Position numbers and translations under genes: made by a program. DNA of 57,630 bases from Heterotrichella gracilis (taxonomy: Eukaryota > Sar > Xanthophyceae > Tribonematales > Xanthonemataceae), in NCBI GenBank assembly GCA_032358255.1, contig JAULBX010025696.1, forward strand, positions 1 to 57,630, in the 5' to 3' direction. Under the pieces are notes generated by a model. The model searched no databases, was not told where the DNA came from, and saw nothing but the letters and a program-made list of their open reading frames with translations. Within the stretch, counting starts at the first letter, position 1. Every line of letters begins with the position of its first letter. Positions 22,827 through 51,409 of the stretch are shown one piece after another.

Positions 22827-24802
22827 GACTGATGCTTGCCCTTTATAGCAGTCTAGTAAGGAATGGGCTACAGCCGTTGAGCTAAGGACGTAGCCTTGGT
22901 GCTGGCTGTGTTGCGCAAACAAGTCGGACAACTGCGCTCTGTGGAATGTTGTTGCAGCCCCACCCAGTGAACGCAGTGGTTTGTGTGTGGAAGGTTGTCA
23001 GGCGCAGCTGCTGCACTTAATTGCGGCCTTGTGAGGCATGGAAGTGTAGCTTTGAAGGTCTGGCTGGGGATGGCGAGTTCCAAACATGGCGTCCTGTATA
23101 GTGCGGGACTTGCTGCACAGCCCAGGATATGCAGAAAAGGGCCTGCAAGCGGGAACCGGGGATGGTTTGGCAGTGGTGCACACAGCGTGTAGAAGGATAT
23201 ATGTGGAATTCGCAGGAAGCTCTGATAGTATCTGTGGGCGAACGCAAGGCCTTGGTCTGACCTGCAGAGCGCCTGAACAGTTGCCAATGTGTGGCGTTCC
23301 AGAGGCATGATCAAGTGGGGAAGTTTGTACACCGACAGATCTAGACGGTATAGACTGCTTTTTAGTAAATCTCGTTGACTGAAATATGCGATACTAAGAC
23401 CACCCTTGCACGACCAAAGGGTCCGCATCTGCAGGGCATCTGAAGGCATGTCCGTGGCAGATTGAACCCGCGAACAGGTTGGCAGCCTCGAACTGGGTAA
23501 ACGGAACCATGGCCAGTGGAGCTGCTACATCGAGTTAGTAAGGATCTGTGTTGTGGGCGACTGTGGGTTCTAAACTACTGGAAACGGCGCGAGTACCGCA
23601 CTACCGTCTGTGTGTGTGTGTGTGCGTGTGTGTCTTTAGGGGCCTGCGGTAAACACCCACAGCCTGGTGTATACACCCCACTCACCCACTTGTAGCTACA
23701 ACGTTTCATGGAAATAGTTCAGGGAACGTAGTTGAAACGATGAACCTCCAAACTGCATCTGACCTGGTCTACCTCTATATCGCCTTTTATGCGCGCTTGA
23801 GTGAACCCCTCCTTGTTATTGTCAAGTCTGCACTGACAGAAATTAACTGTGAGATGTTCGAAAGTCACCTTGTGGGCTGGGTCCTGGTCAAGGTTTTCAG
23901 GTTGTTGTAAAAGGGCGATGTGGCGATTGGACGAGTATACTGAGAATACAACTATAGGGCGACGGGGAAGTCGTTTACCACTGTGGGACTATGTGTAACG
24001 TTAGCTTTAGAAAAACACACGGTCGGGAACAGAACTGCGTTCAGGTTCGCATTTTCTTGGCACCTCTGTCGGTTTGGGTGTACACATGTCGTTTTCGCTG
24101 AGCCTGCATGCAGGCGCACCCGTACCCCCAGCGTTAACCTACGGTTTAGAACCCATCAAGGCCCTGCATAGCCTTAAACAGTGTTCTCACCGCCTGGTGC
24201 CGGATGGAAGTGCACCAGTTGAGTTGAAGTTTGGATAGTGCAAGAAAATAATGTGATTGGGTGGCCCATGGTGACATCTCTTTGGCATGCCATGCTATTG
24301 CATCTTGCAACTGCCCAAAACCGCATAGTTCAAGGCAGGTTTTAACCGTCGGTAGTCTGCGTGGCCTGTATTTCGCGCCTAGCCCCTAGCACCCTGGTGC
24401 ATGTACATGGCGCAGGCTGGGGCCCAGTTGGCACAGGACACACCCAGGCCCCTACACACGGCAAGGGTGCCCACTTGCTCAACATGCCACAAGTATGCCA
24501 ATGTGACAGGAAGCCTACGTTTGAGATCCAACCCACACGGTATGTTTGTTGCAAATTTGCGTGCACCTGCTTTTACTGGCGCCTGCAACTCAGAAAGTGC
24601 ACTTGCTTGCTTGCACTGCAACTGCGCGTGCACTGCAAACGGCACATCTAGGTTGGTATTGGTCCCGGAGCTACATAGGGGGTGGGTGGAATAAGCTAGT
24701 CTATTGAAAATACAGTGCTCAGACAGTATCCACGCTCCAGGCAGGCAAGCGCACCCGCAGCAGTCAACCCCCTGGCTGCCGAGGCGGACACTCGCCCAAG
24801 CC
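22827..24802. other. divergent intergenic region between JmjC and DUF262-HNH genes
   Basis: About 2 kb that should hold both promoters, since the genes point away from each other. A 193-codon minus frame (22868-23449) lies here and could hide an upstream exon of the JmjC gene, but evidence is insufficient. It contains a (TG)n tract at about 23608-23633. No TATA-type box could be assigned with confidence. Confidence 0.45.
23608..23633. repeat. (TG)n microsatellite
   Basis: About twelve TG units with one TGCG interruption. Confidence 0.9.
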
Positions 24803-27800
24803 ATGGGGGCTGATGTTGGGGGGGACATGAGTGATGATACTGATGAGGAGGAGGGGCTTGACGTCGTTGAAGACGACAGCCAGAAGGGACTAGACTTTGG
24901 CACTGTGGGGCATGAGCACATTAGCTTCACCATCAAGGGGCTGGTCGACAAGGTGGGGGTTGGGGTTGCCGAGCCAGTTGAGTACACCACCTTGAGTGGT
25001 GTACTGAGTGTATACAGGCACTTGCTTTCCTTTGTTCCAAGTAAGTGTCATGGGAGGGGCGGCAGCAGGGCAAACTGATTACTATGTCACCTGTACCACG
25101 CATTACTATATAGTATATATGCACATATGTTACATGTACCATGGTGCACCCTCCTGCGCGACAGGATGTGTGGTAGCTGCAGCTGCTGCAGCGTGGGCCG
25201 CGAGTAGCGGGCCTAACTCACACTCGCCAATAACTATCCAACAACTAGCTAGGCGTGTGTACATCCTCCCCTCTTTGCCCACACTGTGTTCTAAACCCCT
25301 TACAATCCTGCACAGCGGACTGCCTGAGTGCACACCCTGCCGTTCAGACGATACTATCCGCCCAGGCCCAATGTGCACCAGTAACACACAAAGACACACA
25401 TATGTGTGTATACATCCAACCGCCCTAAAGCCCCAACACACAAACACGCCTCTGCGCCCCACTGTCCCTTTTCCACTCTTTCACAAGTGTGCCCTGCAGA
25501 TTGATGACGGGGAGATCAACCTTGCCCCTGTGTACCAGCGATCCTACATCTGGCCCCTTGAGAAGGCACATCGCCTGGTGGAGAGTGTCCTCTGTGGTCT
25601 GTTTGTACCATCGATTGTGCTGCATGAAAAGGAGGATGGCAGTTTTGATGTGGTAGATGGAAAGCAGCGCCTGACCACACTGCACAGCATCTTCAAGGGT
25701 ACGTGTTCAGTTTGGAATTAGGAATTGGGATGCATGGCAAGCACAGGGAGGATTCCACTCGAAAGCTATTTATCTTGGCTTTTGCTGGCTTGACTCTCAC
25801 TTTGTAAACATTTTTCAACAACAATATCCTGGAAGGTAACGGTCGGCGTTCAGCATACATCAGCATGGCAGCAGTTTACCATGGGGAGAACCATTACATA
25901 AAAAAAATATATATATATATTTTTTTTTCAGCAGGGATTGTAAAATCCAGCATAAATTATCAAAATCAGTAGATAGCTTGATTTGGTACACAAGGGGAAA
26001 AGGCACAATGGATAAATAGGGAGTAACGATGGCCGAATCAATGGGATCCTGCAACTTGAGATGCCCCAGGAGGTTGTTGCATGTGTTATTGCAATACTGC
26101 TGGATGACATCCAGTGGGTATTAATTTATATGCAAAATGTGCAAGTGGTGCAGGCTGCTTCCCCAATAACAAGGCGTTTCGGCTTAATGGCAAGTTCATG
26201 GATTGCCTTAAGGACATGGATGGCAAGGCGTATGAGGACCTGGACCTTGGGGTGAGTAATGCAAACAGGTTTAGGGTACAAAGCCACACTAGCCACATTG
26301 CACACCGCGACGCTTGTGATGGGAGACTGGATGTACTGTTTCTTATCCTCCAAATGTAAATGGCTAACAACACCTTGCTAAAAGTGTAATAGGTTAAGGC
26401 ACCTGGTGTTCACAGCAAGAAGAAGCACTGTGATGTAGATTGGTCAAAACTCCGGCCAGTCTCTTTGACTCAACATTGGAAGTGTTGTCAATGGTTGGCG
26501 CATAGTTAAAATCAGCAAAAATTGGGAAGTCAGTGAAGCAATATTTGATGCCTCTGCAACTCGATGCATTTTCAATGATCTGAAGCCCCTACTGCACATC
26601 AGGGCCCATGCAGCAAGCGGAAGTTCAACAACTTCAACATCCCTGTCAGCAAATTTGCAAGCAATACAACCGGCAGCGCAATATTGAGAATATACGAGGA
26701 CCTAAATTGCGGAGCAGGTGAGGGATGTATATCACATATGTGCGTTATAGGTTTCATGGCCCAAGTATGTCCATGTGAAGGCATCAAACGGTCCACAGCA
26801 AAGTCAGGATAGTCCACTTCATTTACACTAGCTGTGCAAGTTCATCTGCCAATCTGGCAGTCTTTTAAGTCTTTGCTCAAGTTCCTGTCTTGCTGTATCG
26901 TCATCCTTATTATGATAATTTAAAAGTTTGCAGGATTTTAATTATCTTATTTGACAGTCACACGTCTGAAATTTTCAGGGATTATTATTGGTGCAATTTG
27001 GTTTCCCTTGCCTCTTATTACCGTATATAACATCATCGATTATGATCAACAATTGATAGTAAAACCTTGCAAGGTGATACCAATTAGTTGAACACCTCCA
27101 TGATCGATCACTTACCTTCTTTGATCGTCATATTGGATGATCACATGCCAATCTCATCACCAACAGCTAGCAGCGGACTCTAATGCCGTTGTGAAATGCC
27201 CCTTGCCCCATGCGCAGAGGTATTGAACCCCATGCAGCTCCGCAAGGCCGTCTATTGGGGCCCATACGCGCAAATGCTGGAGGACATTGTGCACGATGAA
27301 AACTCATGTTTCAGGAAGATATTGGAGGGGCACGGCAAGCAGGCGGGGACTGCCAAAGGGACTGGCAAGAAGGCACAAAGCAAGCAGGCGGGGACTGGCA
27401 AGGAGATGCCGCCCAAACAGTTTCCAGACCCTGCTGAGGGTGACCGGGAGCTGGTGCTTCGATATTTTGCCCTTGCGAGGAGCGGTCCCGAGGGGTGAGT
27501 GAAGTTTGTTGGCTGGTAGGGAGGCTATGCTAGGCTTAGCATGATAACCAGGCAGGCAGGCATGTGGGTGTATACGTACACGTGGATACTAGTGGATGCC
27601 ATTCTGTCAAGCGTAATGATTGCTCATGCAGTAATGCGTTAAGCGGCATTCAACATGGGGGGTTCAAGATAATGTTGGCTACATGGAAGTGTCTGCCTTG
27701 GTGGCAGATCAGGATGCATACAATAGATCGGCCACTGTCTCAACAATTTGTTGGACATCCAAGGACAGTAGCAGACTCCTGATCCTACACACAATAAGAT

Positions 27801-30563
27801 AAAAATATGATTGGCATCTATAGTAGCAAAAACGGCGCCTATTTGGCACACTCATTTACAGCTGTTTGGAAAGGCAGTAGAATCATGATAAGCTCCACTC
27901 CTGGCTTGTAAAATAAATGCGAAATCTATCTCCACAGATGTATCAGATGTATTGTTTCTTTGTCTGCATGCCGGCGTGCTACGTGCATCAATGTGAATGT
28001 ATACCATACACACACTGGTGACCACCAGCATATTTTGGCAACGTGCTTGCCAAGTTGCACTATCACCGCCACGCACATGCGTCCTTGATTGCATTTTTAG
28101 GTATTTATATGCATTTACATTTTCTTTGTCTCCTTAGGTACGACACTCCTGTGAAAACCTTCCTCACCCTGGAGCTGTCCAATCACCGCAACCTGGCAGA
28201 CAAGGAACTGGAGAAATTGAAAAAGGTAGGTCACCTGGGCGTGGGTGATGCGCAATTGCACCACAGTAATGGATAGGATTCAGGGTTGAAACCACAACAA
28301 GCATGTTTTCACTGGGGTTTTAGGTTCCTCGGGTGGATCCATTGCATTGCACAAACTGCAACACCTCCCCCCCTGTTTTGGTAACCCTTTTCAGGTGTGA
28401 ACACGTTGGCTGCAACCCTGTTCTATAGCTAGCTAGGTTTTGCAAACAATGCACATCTGAAGTCAGGATGAGTTGTGCTTATGATATGTGCATGTGCCTT
28501 GGTGGTTGTGCGAGCGGAATCATGTATGGGAACCGTTCGATATTGAGGCAGGATGCTGTGCCTCCTCAATTGAGAATCTTGCAAGTTAGAGTTACCATAC
28601 ACACATACCTCTATACATGCAGGACTTTGAGTCCACCATGAGAAAGTGCTACGAGGTGTTTGGACGAGATGCATTTCGCACCCTTGGCAAGGGCGGCAAG
28701 CGAAGCCAGATTATCAAGCCAACCTTCTTTGAAACCCTGGCGTACGTCATGCTGGAGGTGTCTATGGAGGATGTGTCACGGTAGGGTGCAGGGTTGAAAG
28801 GGTTTTTTAGTTCATGTTTGAACACTTTTGGCCATGGTGAGCAATGTCTTCTTCCCCCACCTTGCATGGCGTAAGCAATGGCCAGGCTGGTGGGTAGCAC
28901 AGGCTGCTGTAGATGTTATTGGTACAGATATCTCTAGAGCCACCACTCCTCACCCCCAGGGAGGCAAATGGTGTACGGTACAAGGTTTGCCCCCGTCTCC
29001 TCCTTGCTACAGCCCTTTCCCCTCTGCCTACACTCACCTTATCCACGGGTTGGCCCAATGCCATACTGCAACGCATCCACAACCCACGAGCTTGTTGGGA
29101 CCAAAATACAGAGGTACCCTCAAAAAAAGTTAAAATGTGGCGCTCAGCGCTATAAGGTAGAGGGCAAAGACCATGCAATTTGGGAAGCTTTTGGGGGCAG
29201 CCAACAAACTTTGACAAATATTGGGAATCAACATTCCCTTTGTTAGTCAAAAGAATGCTTGGCAAATCCCATATCCCATTAAAATATGTACTGTCTCGTA
29301 ACATTCAATCTAAGTAACTAACACCTGTTTTGTTTCTTTTTCAAAAAACATTTCGACACCATGGTCTGCAGAAAATAAAATAAAATGACCATACCCTGTG
29401 CTTTTCTTTTCCTTACCTGAACTCTGGGACCCACAGTGGGGACACCCCCGGACTCACAGAATGGGACAAACAGGATAGTAAATTACATCTGACAATGCAA
29501 TTGAACGGTTGACGGTGCAAAAAGTTTGCAAGTATAAAGTTACAGACAAATTAACCATGTACCTATTAGGTGCATTCCAGCGTCAGGGCCAGGTGAGCAT
29601 GTCTGGGTATGCCTCACCCCAGACCTAGAGCCACAAGGCGTATCATACACGTTTTCCAGTGTAACAGATGGTGACAAATTGGTGATGTCGCTTGCCGTGA
29701 TTTTTGTGCTACCCATTTATAACCCCGGCGTAAATGTCAGGGCAGTGGGGAGAAATCGCCACCCTCAGGACTCATACCGTATGGCTTGCGGCCCTTTGCT
29801 TGGTTGAACTCCACACTCAGGTGCTGAGCCACTGGCTGGGTTGGCCAATGGAGGGAGGGATCTATTTAACCGTTTGTGTGTGTCTGATGAAAAATGAGTT
29901 TGCACCATATACGCATTTGCTACTGATACTCACTCAACCTGTAATCTCTATGAAACTCTCCCACTCTTCCTCCCAGACGAGCCGATGCCATCCGCACAGA
30001 GGTGGACACCCTGCTGCAAGAGCCCGAATTCACAGATCTGCTGAAGAAGGCAAAGCAGGAGCCACTGGCTAAACGGGTGCGGATGTGCAAGGAGCGGGTG
30101 CTAGTGCGAGCGCTAGACTCCCCGACAAGCGCATTTGGCAAGGCAGTCAAACGGAGGTGATGGGTGGGTGATGTTGGGTGGTCATGGTGTATGTGGTGGG
30201 AATGGGTGCTTGGTGCTTGTGGCCACATTGTGAAGGTACCCGGGTGTTTGGGGTGACATGTGTGTATACCTTGCGGCAACATATATGATTTTTGTCCACA
30301 ACAAACAATTGGGTCAAGATAGATTACAATGCATTAATGACGGTCATTTCACACTGCCATGCAGGTTCTTTTCTTCGCTTGAACGTGACACCCTGTGGAC
30401 ACAGCAGCAGGGGGTGTGCGCGCTGTGCGGCAATGTGATGCAGGACATCACTACCACCCATATAGACCACATAATACCCTTCTCGAAGGGAGGCCCCACC
30501 ACCATGGACAACGCGCAGCTGGTGCACGAATATTGCAATAGGAAAAAGGGGGCTAGGATGTAA
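24803..30563 (+). CDS. DUF262-HNH nuclease-like protein (GmrSD/type IV restriction-like), intron-rich
   Basis: Exons: 24803-24952, 25500-25698, 26154-26251, 26603-26717, 27218-27494, 28138-28225, 28623-28780, 29977-30156, 30365-30563; all phases agree (487 aa, TAA). After an acidic leader, the DUF262 domain opens with VYQRSYIW (61-68) and has the signature D103-GKQR-107 followed by LTTL, which in bacterial relatives is the DGQQR nucleotide-binding/hydrolysis motif. An ILRIYEDLNCGAG...LNPMQLRKAV block continues the fold. The C-terminus is an HNH endonuclease: C440-x2-C443, D456-H457 in THIDHIIPFSKGG, N471, then H476-x2-C479 and NRKKG. In bacteria this pairing marks enzymes such as GmrSD that cut modified phage DNA. 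A Lys/Gly-rich repeated insert lies near residues 246-268. Its role in the alga is unknown; DNA cleavage is inferred from the intact HNH residues. It converges with the next gene, with 231 bp between stops. Confidence 0.9.
25901..25928. repeat. A-tract/(TA)n/T-tract hairpin in DUF262-HNH intron 2
   Basis: A run of A, alternating TA and a run of T form a self-complementary AT tract within the intron. Confidence 0.85.
27335..27397 (+). repeat. 18-bp direct duplication inside the DUF262-HNH coding region
   Basis: The 18-mer beginning GCAAGCAGGCGG occurs at 27335-27352 and again exactly at 27380-27397. It encodes a repeated KQAGT motif in a Lys/Gly-rich linker that interrupts the exon. Confidence 0.85.
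29588..29616 (+). repeat. dispersed 29-bp repeat copy
   Basis: Matches 57602-57630 with one mismatch; the shared core is GCATGTCTGGGTATGCCTCA. This copy lies in an intron of the DUF262-HNH gene, and the other is cut by the window end, so the repeat may be longer. Confidence 0.75.
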
Positions 30564-48930: not shown

Positions 48931-50250
48931 GTGGGGAAACCCTGAACCCTAGATGTCCCCATGTGTGAACCCTCACCTGGGATGCGTATTGGATTGAGTG
49001 GTAGTAAATGTGACCTGACCCAGGGTGTGAGGGTCCCCACCAGTGTGGTGATTTGCCAACAGTTGCAGTAAAATATTCTATATAGGGGGCACGAGGAAAT
49101 ATCCAGATATTTTTTATGTAGAGCAGGAGTATCATCGAGTAGTTCCTTGTGGTGACTGGCGCCCACCGCCATTGCATGGCGCCCAGCCATGATGACAACC
49201 TGTGTCTCCTGACCCTGTGGGTACCTGCCCGCACTCACCTGTGCCAATGTGAGGATTGCTGTTGCAATCATTGTGCAGTTGTCAACCGTGCCCAGTAAAG
49301 TTTGACATTGTTGGTCAAGGTTGGGCCCATCGTTGAATATGAATATACTTGGAGTTTGGCGCTGCCATTCCCGGCCATTAGTATATGCCCTGCTGTGCGT
49401 GCGCCCTGCCGTGGTTGTTGAACCAGGTTTATTGTAACTTGTTGAAGGCCTTGCACTCGTGCCAGCATGTCTGCAAGGAGAAAAACTCCGTATCTGCAAA
49501 CACCGCACCTGATTTGCAAGTTCAAACCCTTGCCCTAGGGTTTAGACACACTGCCAGCTGGCACAGTGGAGGAGCAACGGCAGTTCCAACGAGAAGCAGC
49601 TGTGTGTTGACGTGGGTGTAACAAGACCAAAGTTGTATGCCTTTGTTGTTGTTGTATGGAGAGTTGTATGTATGCCTTTGTTGTTGTATGCCTTTGTTGT
49701 TGTTGTCACAACAGCCAGCAGGTGTGCTGCTGGTGACATCACCTGTCGAGGCCGTGTTGTGATACTCCACTGGGCTCCGCAAGCACCGCGCGCACGTCTC
49801 AGTCGGCCACAAGTTTTCAGCAGTTTATTGTGACGCGAAGGTGGTTTCGGAGCGTTGCAGGGGTCATTTCAGGTGAATACGCTCGTGCATGCATTGCATG
49901 CATGCAGGCCCCCAAAATGGGTATTGAACGGGTTCCAACAACATATGTTCCCACGCGTATGTTTGGCACAGTGCTTGTTCCATTTACACCCATCACATCT
50001 GACAGGGCTCGCACCTTTCAAAGCCATGGGGTAGGGTGGACACTTGTCCCTCAACTGCCTACTCAGGGTTGACACTACTGCAGTAGCCGCACCCACAGAC
50101 CGCTGCGCATGCACACAATATGCCACGCTTGCACTTATACCCGTCCTGGCGCAGGGGTTACCCCACGGGATGCCAAGCTCAGGGCAGCGTGCCAGCCCTG
50201 TACCAGTGTACCAGTGTCCCAGCCCAGTAGTTGAAACCCCGCACCACGCA
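48931..50250. other. intergenic with a TTG-rich minisatellite
   Basis: 3' region of the FKBP gene and upstream region of the next gene. It holds a short minisatellite (49634-49706) and a TAGGGTTT motif at 49536. No exon is supported. Confidence 0.5.
49634..49706. repeat. minisatellite, three units
   Basis: Units of the form TGTATGCCTTTGTTGTTGT occur three times with a small insertion between the first two. Confidence 0.8.
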
Positions 50251-51409
50251 ATGAAGCGGGGTTTCTTCGACACGCCGCCCAAGAAGCCAAATACGAGCTC
50301 CAGCAGGGCACAGTCAGCACCCACACCGCCTCCACCTGCACCACCACCCGCGCCCACCTCATCCTCAGCACCACCACCCCCTCACACCAGCAGCAGCAGC
50401 TCGAATGCCCAGCCCCCAGCAGACCGCCAGCTCAAGGCAAACTACCTGTCGATTACCAACCAGCTCCTCATGGCCTGCTTCTTGCGTAAGACACCCCCGC
50501 CAGTGGTCTGTGACGCCTATGGCGCCACCCCACACGGCTCGCGCCATGCCGCCGCAGTGTTAGCATGCATCGGCATGGCAGCTGAGTTTGATCAGGTCAC
50601 AGTGCTTGAAATCCAGAAGGCGCGCATCGACGGCAGGCTCCAGCAGGTGCTCAAATGCTCACCCATCATCGCACACCGGGCCTTTTTCGAAGCAGCTCAA
50701 GAGTCTGGCTACGATGTGACACCTGAAGAGATTGAGGCGGTGCTTGCTGACGGCGGCGTTCGCGCGCCAAAGGGGTACCCCCCCGCTGCCTGCAGGCTTC
50801 CCACCTGCCAGCCTGGAGGAGGAGCTGACCACTGCGCACTACATCGGCATGGCGCAGCAGCTGGTCAAGGCTTGTTTCGATGACATATTCCCTGACGATG
50901 CGGTGTGCAAGGCGTATGGGATCTGGCCGCGCGGCTCGCAGCATGAGATTGCGGTGTTTGGGTGCATCCAGGTAGGACGGGAGTGTGCCGCAGGGCCCAC
51001 TGCATACACCATGGCAATGCAGTGCATGGACACATGTGGTGATCGGCCACAGCTTGCAGTGGATTGTCGCAGCTGCGCGAACGGCACAGAACCCCTCAAC
51101 AACCTCCAGGTTATGACAAGCACATGGTTGAAAATGCCCAGACCAGGCAAATGACCTTGCCAAGTACACTTGCTGGTCTACAGTGTACACGTGGTCAATA
51201 GGTGTATTCCCCCGCAGGGGGCTGTCAAGGGCTGTGGTGTCAATGCTGGGCATTTGGAGCGGGCCCGCAATGACGGCAGGCTGGAAGAGATGCTGTTTTC
51301 GCACAAGCGGCTGCGCCCTTGCGCATACGCAGAGAGAATTCGGCGGGGGGTGGGCATAAAGGCGCCAAAGGGGAGGGAGGTGCCCGCTTTTGTAGCACCT
51401 TTTCTGTAG
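50251..51409 (+). CDS. unknown protein with duplicated domain; frame broken at a seven-C run
   Basis: Exons 50251-50971 and 51218-51409 (TAG). As written the frame from ATG 50251 stops at 50881-50883 after 210 residues. Ignoring one base of the C run at 50778-50784 gives one continuous 303-residue protein whose phase fits the intron, so the break is probably an error or a recent indel. A Pro/Ser/Thr-rich leader (MKRGFFDTPPKK...) precedes two copies of a roughly 105-residue module. Shared features are C(D/K)AYG-x2-P-x-GS-x-H followed by AV-x2-CI, then R-x-DGRL and a closing (V/I)-(R/K)-APKG. The first copy spans about 61-175 and the second about 190-292. No known family was recognised; the modules are predicted helical. 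The KKP-rich start could be a nuclear signal. Confidence 0.65.

Follow-up and report, generated by a model that had tools for sequence, protein, structure and literature searches.

The gene examined here occupies positions 24803–30563 of the plus strand in a 57,630-nucleotide window of the Heterotrichella gracilis genome (the whole stretch of DNA that was analyzed; it is contig C318, one of 903 in an assembly of 68.5 Mb), and encodes, once spliced, a DUF262 domain followed by an HNH nuclease. With modest confidence, its product is interpreted as a DNA nuclease that is gated by a nucleotide and belongs to a eukaryotic DUF262-HNH family; it would probably serve nuclear or cytosolic DNA surveillance and plausibly act against foreign DNA. 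The ParB/Srx-type DUF262 half would bind a nucleotide in its DGKQR pocket and sense a feature of the DNA, and this sensing would license nicking or cutting of that DNA by the C-terminal HNH, which a helical linker connects to the DUF262 half. In SspE, the DUF262 pocket recognizes a DNA mark, hydrolyzes GTP and licenses the HNH nuclease, and mutating any of these steps abolishes defense (PMC13251355). The same parts are present in the shorter H. gracilis protein, which makes a nucleotide-gated DNA nuclease the best reading, with gating and mark sensing inferred by analogy with the literature on SspE, BrxU and GmrSD.

The coding span runs from an ATG to a TAA through nine exons that join in frame, giving a spliced coding sequence of 1464 nt, or 487 amino acids and the stop. 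All eight introns are GT-AG, with lengths of 208–1196 bases, and the phases out of the successive exons are 0, 1, 0, 1, 2, 0, 2 and 2. Each of the eight introns holds between 5 and 13 in-frame stops, so the reading frame is open solely after splicing and an unspliced gene of bacterial type is impossible. A profile built from 20 relatives, with the H. gracilis sequence excluded, aligned residues 24–487 across all eight junctions and scored 373.7 bits against the spliced protein, compared with a sum of ∼278 bits for the single exons. Scored singly, exons 1 (−3.4 bits) and 3 (0.6 bits) gave no signal and the remaining seven gave 9.8 to 102.1 bits. The coordinates, start, stop and eight phase-consistent introns proposed in a first-pass annotation, made from the letters alone, are thus upheld by the splice model and by the profile running through every junction.

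Exon 1 (24803–24952, residues 1–50) carries an acidic N-terminus and the start of DUF262; no earlier in-frame ATG stands between its start codon and a stop at 24692, and an extra 5′ exon upstream of this predicted start could still exist. After intron 1 (24953–25499, 547 bases, phase 0), exon 2 (25500–25698) provides the DUF262 core, with the PxYQR...W motif and DGKQR (codons 103–107 at 25656–25670), and is the exon that scores 102.1 bits alone. Intron 2 (25699–26153, 455 bases, phase 1) is followed by exon 3 (26154–26251), which aligns to the DUF262 domain within the full protein, and intron 3 (26252–26602, 351 bases, phase 0, with seven in-frame stops) by exon 4 (26603–26717), also in the DUF262 domain and containing YEDLNCG. 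Beyond intron 4 (26718–27217, 500 bases, phase 1), exon 5 (27218–27494) holds the end of DUF262, with the domain profile stopping near 27255, and an R-x-A-V-Y-x-G-P-Y motif. It also carries an internally repeated Lys/Gly-rich insert of ∼30 residues (about 225–262), absent from 15 aligned relatives, which could be a nuclear-localization-like stretch. The linker is spread over exon 6 (28138–28225), exon 7 (28623–28780; FESTMRKCYEVFGRDAFR) and exon 8 (29977–30156), which are preceded by intron 5 (27495–28137, 643 bases, phase 2), intron 6 (28226–28622, 397 bases, phase 0) and intron 7 (28781–29976, 1196 bases, phase 2), respectively. Intron 8 (30157–30364, 208 bases, phase 2) leads into exon 9 (30365–30563; 91.9 bits alone), which encodes the HNH nuclease (Pfam match at 30417–30557) with CALC, IDHIIP, N and HEYCNRKKG ahead of the TAA. 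All of these features lie on the plus strand.

In the spliced protein, Pfam places GmrSD_N (DUF262, PF03235) at residues 44–200 (E 2.3e-22) and HNH (PF01844) at residues 440–486 (E 1.6e-12). The DGKQR motif falls at residues 103–107, and the nuclease retains C440, C443, D456, H457, N471, C479, N480 and K483. A DUF262 domain with DGKQR and an intact HNH had been predicted, with loss of these residues in the true product named as grounds for doubt; the predicted spliced product keeps them all.

The gene most likely belongs to the nuclear genome of a green alga, an assignment made because eukaryotic genes share its contig and a green-plant CP26 is found in the assembly, which is assumed to contain a single eukaryote. 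Exons on the same contig show matches to COPI beta′ (TPR_COPA_B; coatomer beta′ in the PDB), O-fucosyltransferase, Armadillo and FKBP. There are 43 matches to light-harvesting proteins in the assembly, and the one fragment among them that was compared with the PDB is a green-plant CP26, scoring 265.6 bits with 9is4, 262.9 with 6kac, 255.9 with 7pi0 and 232.8 with 8bd3; we take the last three to be from Chlamydomonas, Dunaliella and Chlorella ohadii, respectively. This ranking sits uneasily with the grouping of the DUF262-HNH gene beside Chlorella and Micractinium. A search of the assembly for PsaA/B gave no match, so the plastid genome either lies outside the assembly or was overlooked.

Bacterial contamination or an assembly artefact can practically be dismissed. 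One stretch of the assembly, if not more, is indeed of bacterial type: positions 70000–79999 of contig C760 hold a dense run of intron-free thymidylate synthase, HipA-type and helicase open reading frames (ORFs) along with a short DUF262 ORF, and appear to be a contaminant or an associate of the alga. The introns of the present gene with their stops, the COPI beta′, O-fucosyltransferase and FKBP exons on its contig and its placement among algae in the trees all argue instead for a nuclear, spliced gene, as the first-pass annotation had held. The short ORF on C760 is the only other PF03235 match in the assembly and, being of bacterial type, was rejected as a second H. gracilis copy.

The search for relatives returned at least 235 proteins from 7998 candidates scored, these being the ones sharing most words, and the known taxonomic spread is therefore a lower bound. 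Among the candidates scored, the best relative is a protein of Micractinium conductrix (P0001; 36% identity over 74%), with the diatom Seminavis robusta lower in the ranking alongside many bacterial proteins; using the Micractinium protein as the query brought in Chlorella variabilis, Edaphochlamys debaryana, Chlamydomonas schloesseri and C. incerta. In the databases these homologues are named as hypothetical proteins or after their domains. In the P0001 model the DUF262 protein is fused to an integrase of retroelement type (PF00665), probably through a modeling error that joined two genes, and because of this fusion the model was shortened to its first 420 residues for the trees and 430 for the residue comparison.

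Maximum-likelihood trees placed H. gracilis in a clade apart from the bacterial-type rows, comprising 15 of 58 rows in tree 1 (support 100/97) and 16 of 53 in tree 2 (100/99). Tree 2 omits from tree 1 the rows P0004, P0007, P0013, P0065, P0094, P0010, P0014, P0107, P0113, P0117, P0122, P0138, P0139, P0157, L044, L046, L048, L050, L060, L062, L064, L071, L072, L077 and L083. The named members of the clade are Chlorella, Micractinium, Edaphochlamys, two Chlamydomonas species and the diatom Seminavis, with Micractinium and Chlorella neighboring H. gracilis (97/89). The organism is known for seven of the 22 eukaryotic-type rows, namely H. gracilis and six named species, and "diatom-type" is a label of this analysis whose sole named member is S. 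robusta. Of these 22 rows, 21 are in a tree, P0175 having been used in the residue comparison alone. The green rows split weakly in the free tree (84/50), a single green clade is not rejected (p 0.102), and the trees do not settle on a sister group for the eukaryotic-type clade.

Residue comparisons set the same clade apart, as an Arg at position 182 is found in none of the 22 eukaryotic-type rows and in all 36 bacterial-type rows. The set of HNH residues is complete in 18 of the 22, the others (P0001, P0159, P0168 and P0175) being truncated or mis-modeled. The CxxC and last C of the HNH, kept in H. gracilis, read S and F in 18 of the 36 bacterial-type rows, and in the cyanobacterial homologues L043–L046 the equivalents of Asp456 and Asn480 are replaced by A and H, suggesting degenerate or non-cutting versions. 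Two further DUF262 proteins, the metagenomic P0162 and P0163, have no HNH, begin with transit-peptide-like sequence and carry K105 but keep Arg182. Tree 2 puts them in one cluster with cyanobacterial proteins and one from a Pyrinomonadaceae bacterium, their joining the eukaryotic clade is not rejected (p 0.235), and they possibly represent a second, plastid-targeted eukaryotic line.

Old descent of the eukaryotic DUF262-HNH clade is the simplest reading of these sequences. The first-pass annotation had argued from the introns for old acquisition over contamination, and the grouping with green-algal and diatom-type homologues on a eukaryotic contig fits that view, though the gene may instead have passed between algal groups. 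An origin from cyanobacteria through the plastid was rejected: some of the best full-length matches are cyanobacterial, yet H. gracilis groups apart from them in the trees. A viral origin was likewise rejected after a scan of IMG/VR with two peptide patterns. None of the 37 viral-contig loci matched has a best ORF spanning both domains, with 33 matched via the DUF262 part and four (L027, L028, L030 and L032) solely via the HNH of a short ORF.

It is highly improbable that the gene is a functionless bacterial one, either in decay or captured recently. The end branch leading to H. gracilis is long, at 1.7 and 1.31 changes per column in trees 1 and 2, and four other rows of the clade have no complete HNH in their models. 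However, all of the active-site residues of H. gracilis are intact, its eight introns fall in three phases, and the clade includes a diatom as well as other green algae. Between the two Chlamydomonas proteins, moreover, identity is 88, 83 and 86% over the DUF262, middle and HNH parts, compared with 75% N-terminally and 56% in the tail, a contrast that is modest.

The earlier annotation likened the gene to bacterial enzymes of the GmrSD, SspE and BrxU types, but these are not its closest kin. The nuclease half of these enzymes is DUF1524 (PMC10952713). The H. gracilis protein shares their N-terminal DUF262, but its nuclease is PF01844; a Pfam scan to E 1 showed PF01844, PF14279 and PF13395 but no DUF1524, and the match to SspE is only E 1.2e-4. 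The best match in the defense library is instead PDLC03877, labeled "NsnA" in PADLOC, to residues 23–398 (E 4.2e-53), which takes in DUF262 and the linker, the HNH lying beyond this match; no explanation of the label was found in the literature searched. The nearest bacterial kin are therefore free-standing DUF262 proteins with a PF01844 HNH, entered in databases as "HNH endonuclease family protein" or "DUF262 domain-containing protein". They resemble the H. gracilis protein in domain order, length (about 450 aa in bacteria), acidic N-terminus and the catalytic DH and N residues of the C-terminal HNH. The bacterial proteins differ in the Arg182 that H. gracilis is missing. Identity to the H. 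gracilis protein is 26–31% at the 14 best bacterial loci, with a Flavobacterium protein (P0022) at 30% over 92%. The model of the A protein of PD-T4-2, an antiphage system that reportedly came from functional selection, matches the DUF262 part alone (residues 51–217, E 9e-20). In a published listing of DUF262 systems, PD-T4-2 appears with a HEPN domain and lacks DUF1524 (PMC10952713), and the HEPN protein VNG7073 is fused to DUF262 and to an HNH of another type, DUF2081 (PMC3710099).

Support for defense from bacterial gene neighborhoods is mixed. At 12 loci, 30 of the 107 flanking ORFs (two to four per locus) were scanned against PADLOC, and two loci showed clear restriction settings. At L049, in Flavobacterium celericrescens, a DrmD-like SNF2 helicase and two type III methyltransferases adjoin the gene, and at L053 the neighbors are HsdS- and HsdR-like genes and a GIY-YIG-type T5orf172. 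A further locus, L051, adjoins a Fic-domain candidate defense gene.

Several findings weigh against a DNA-surveillance nuclease directed at foreign DNA. The PADLOC matches at L054 and L048 are weak, and seven of the 12 loci have no match among the scanned neighbors, which include, for example, a tRNA synthetase and an isocitrate/isopropylmalate dehydrogenase. Those neighbors of the H. gracilis gene that were identified in the window are housekeeping genes. The clade reads DGKQR in all 22 eukaryotic-type rows, H. gracilis included, where all 36 bacterial-type rows read DGQQR, and with Lys in place of Gln the use of the nucleotide may have changed. The matches from fold comparison were middling and of a kind common to HNH domains at large, and a Foldseek search returned no match at E ≤ 0.001. 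Such a gene might alternatively have been domesticated for internal DNA repair or as a structure-specific nuclease unconnected to foreign DNA, as with the HNH of human ZRANB3. This is unlikely, as the known spread looks patchy, albeit as a lower bound, and the fold matches do not go beyond HNH domains generally. A surveillance nuclease continues to be the preferred interpretation, but antiviral or defense use of the H. gracilis gene is unproven. No methyltransferase was present among the 10 other window ORFs scanned, and no genome-wide search for one was made. Elsewhere in the window, at 50035–51154 of the plus strand, two overlapping ORFs, the first without a Pfam match, seem by eye to repeat an A-C-F ... 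C-x-A-Y-G ... G-S-x-H ... C module.

The N-termini bear on where these proteins act, with the caveat that starts come from unverified gene models and that presequences were judged by eye. In the first 45 residues, H. gracilis and Micractinium have 14 acidic residues each, Chlorella 10, the two Chlamydomonas proteins 6 and 7, and Edaphochlamys 0. Among the diatom-type rows with a start (the fragment P0013 being left out of the count), 11 of 15 have two or fewer and the other four have 6–11, compared with at least seven in all 36 bacterial-type rows. The acid-poor N-termini suggest organelle targeting in the diatom-type lineage, and being presequence-like they make surveillance of organelle DNA a rival explanation. 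Under it, members would be imported into mitochondria or plastids and there eliminate or police DNA that is foreign, damaged or one parent's and unmarked, with the H. gracilis copy doing so via an unrecognized signal or an extra 5′ exon. The zero count in Edaphochlamys and the transit-peptide-like starts of the HNH-less P0162 and P0163 are in its favor, as is precedent, with a HpaII-type restriction-modification system acting in the katablepharid mitochondrion in a paper that also names methylation and nuclease functions in uniparental Chlamydomonas chloroplast inheritance, by a mechanism that is unclear (PMC8099122). The katablepharid system resembles the H. gracilis gene as a bacterial restriction enzyme retained in a eukaryote, but it is encoded in mitochondrial DNA together with a methyltransferase, whereas the H. 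gracilis gene is nuclear, spliced, of another family and found in several lineages. The acidic starts of H. gracilis, Micractinium and Chlorella, and less so those of Chlamydomonas, speak against organellar action, as do the four acidic diatom-type rows. As the H. gracilis start is acidic and its ATG is the first after a stop, organellar targeting is not indicated there, barring a missed upstream exon. Organellar action is on this evidence rather unlikely for the gene, and the acidic N-terminus without an obvious presequence makes a nuclear or cytosolic product probable.

Part of this distribution is already in print, as GmrSD-family (DUF262) homologues in Chlorophyta, Bacillariophyta and Heterolobosea were surveyed in 2015, with Chlorella variabilis, Coccomyxa subellipsoidea and Thalassiosira oceanica named in an alignment legend (Machnicka et al., PMC4619093). 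Like the present family, those homologues come from green algae and a diatom, and the survey's Chlorella protein may be P0159 of our trees. The portions of that survey consulted present them as GmrS/GmrD-family members, with no mention of a PF01844 HNH, introns, a eukaryotic clade or DGKQR, and GmrSD is mentioned in prokaryotes in another paper (PMC7641849). No description of the spliced DUF262-HNH family beyond that survey was found in the literature searched, subscription papers lying outside it. That DUF262 occurs in green algae and diatoms is therefore not new, but its combination with PF01844, the splicing of the gene, the grouping into a clade and the DGKQR signature apparently are.

A restriction-type mechanism was once proposed, reportedly, for the way in which chloroplast DNA from one parent is selectively destroyed. 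It is very doubtful that green algae and diatoms have kept a mark-sensing nuclease of restriction type that is encoded in the nucleus and acts on organelle DNA; if true, such an enzyme would be a molecular candidate for that destruction. Restriction-modification is described in a review as undocumented in eukaryotes save for one case (PMC11249213), the mitochondrial HpaII system (PMC8099122). That statement would need qualifying in view of a seemingly intact, spliced family of restriction-type nucleases in green algae and diatoms, and the H. gracilis gene offers named active-site residues with which eukaryotic mark-sensing nucleases may be tested, whether against viruses or on organelle DNA.
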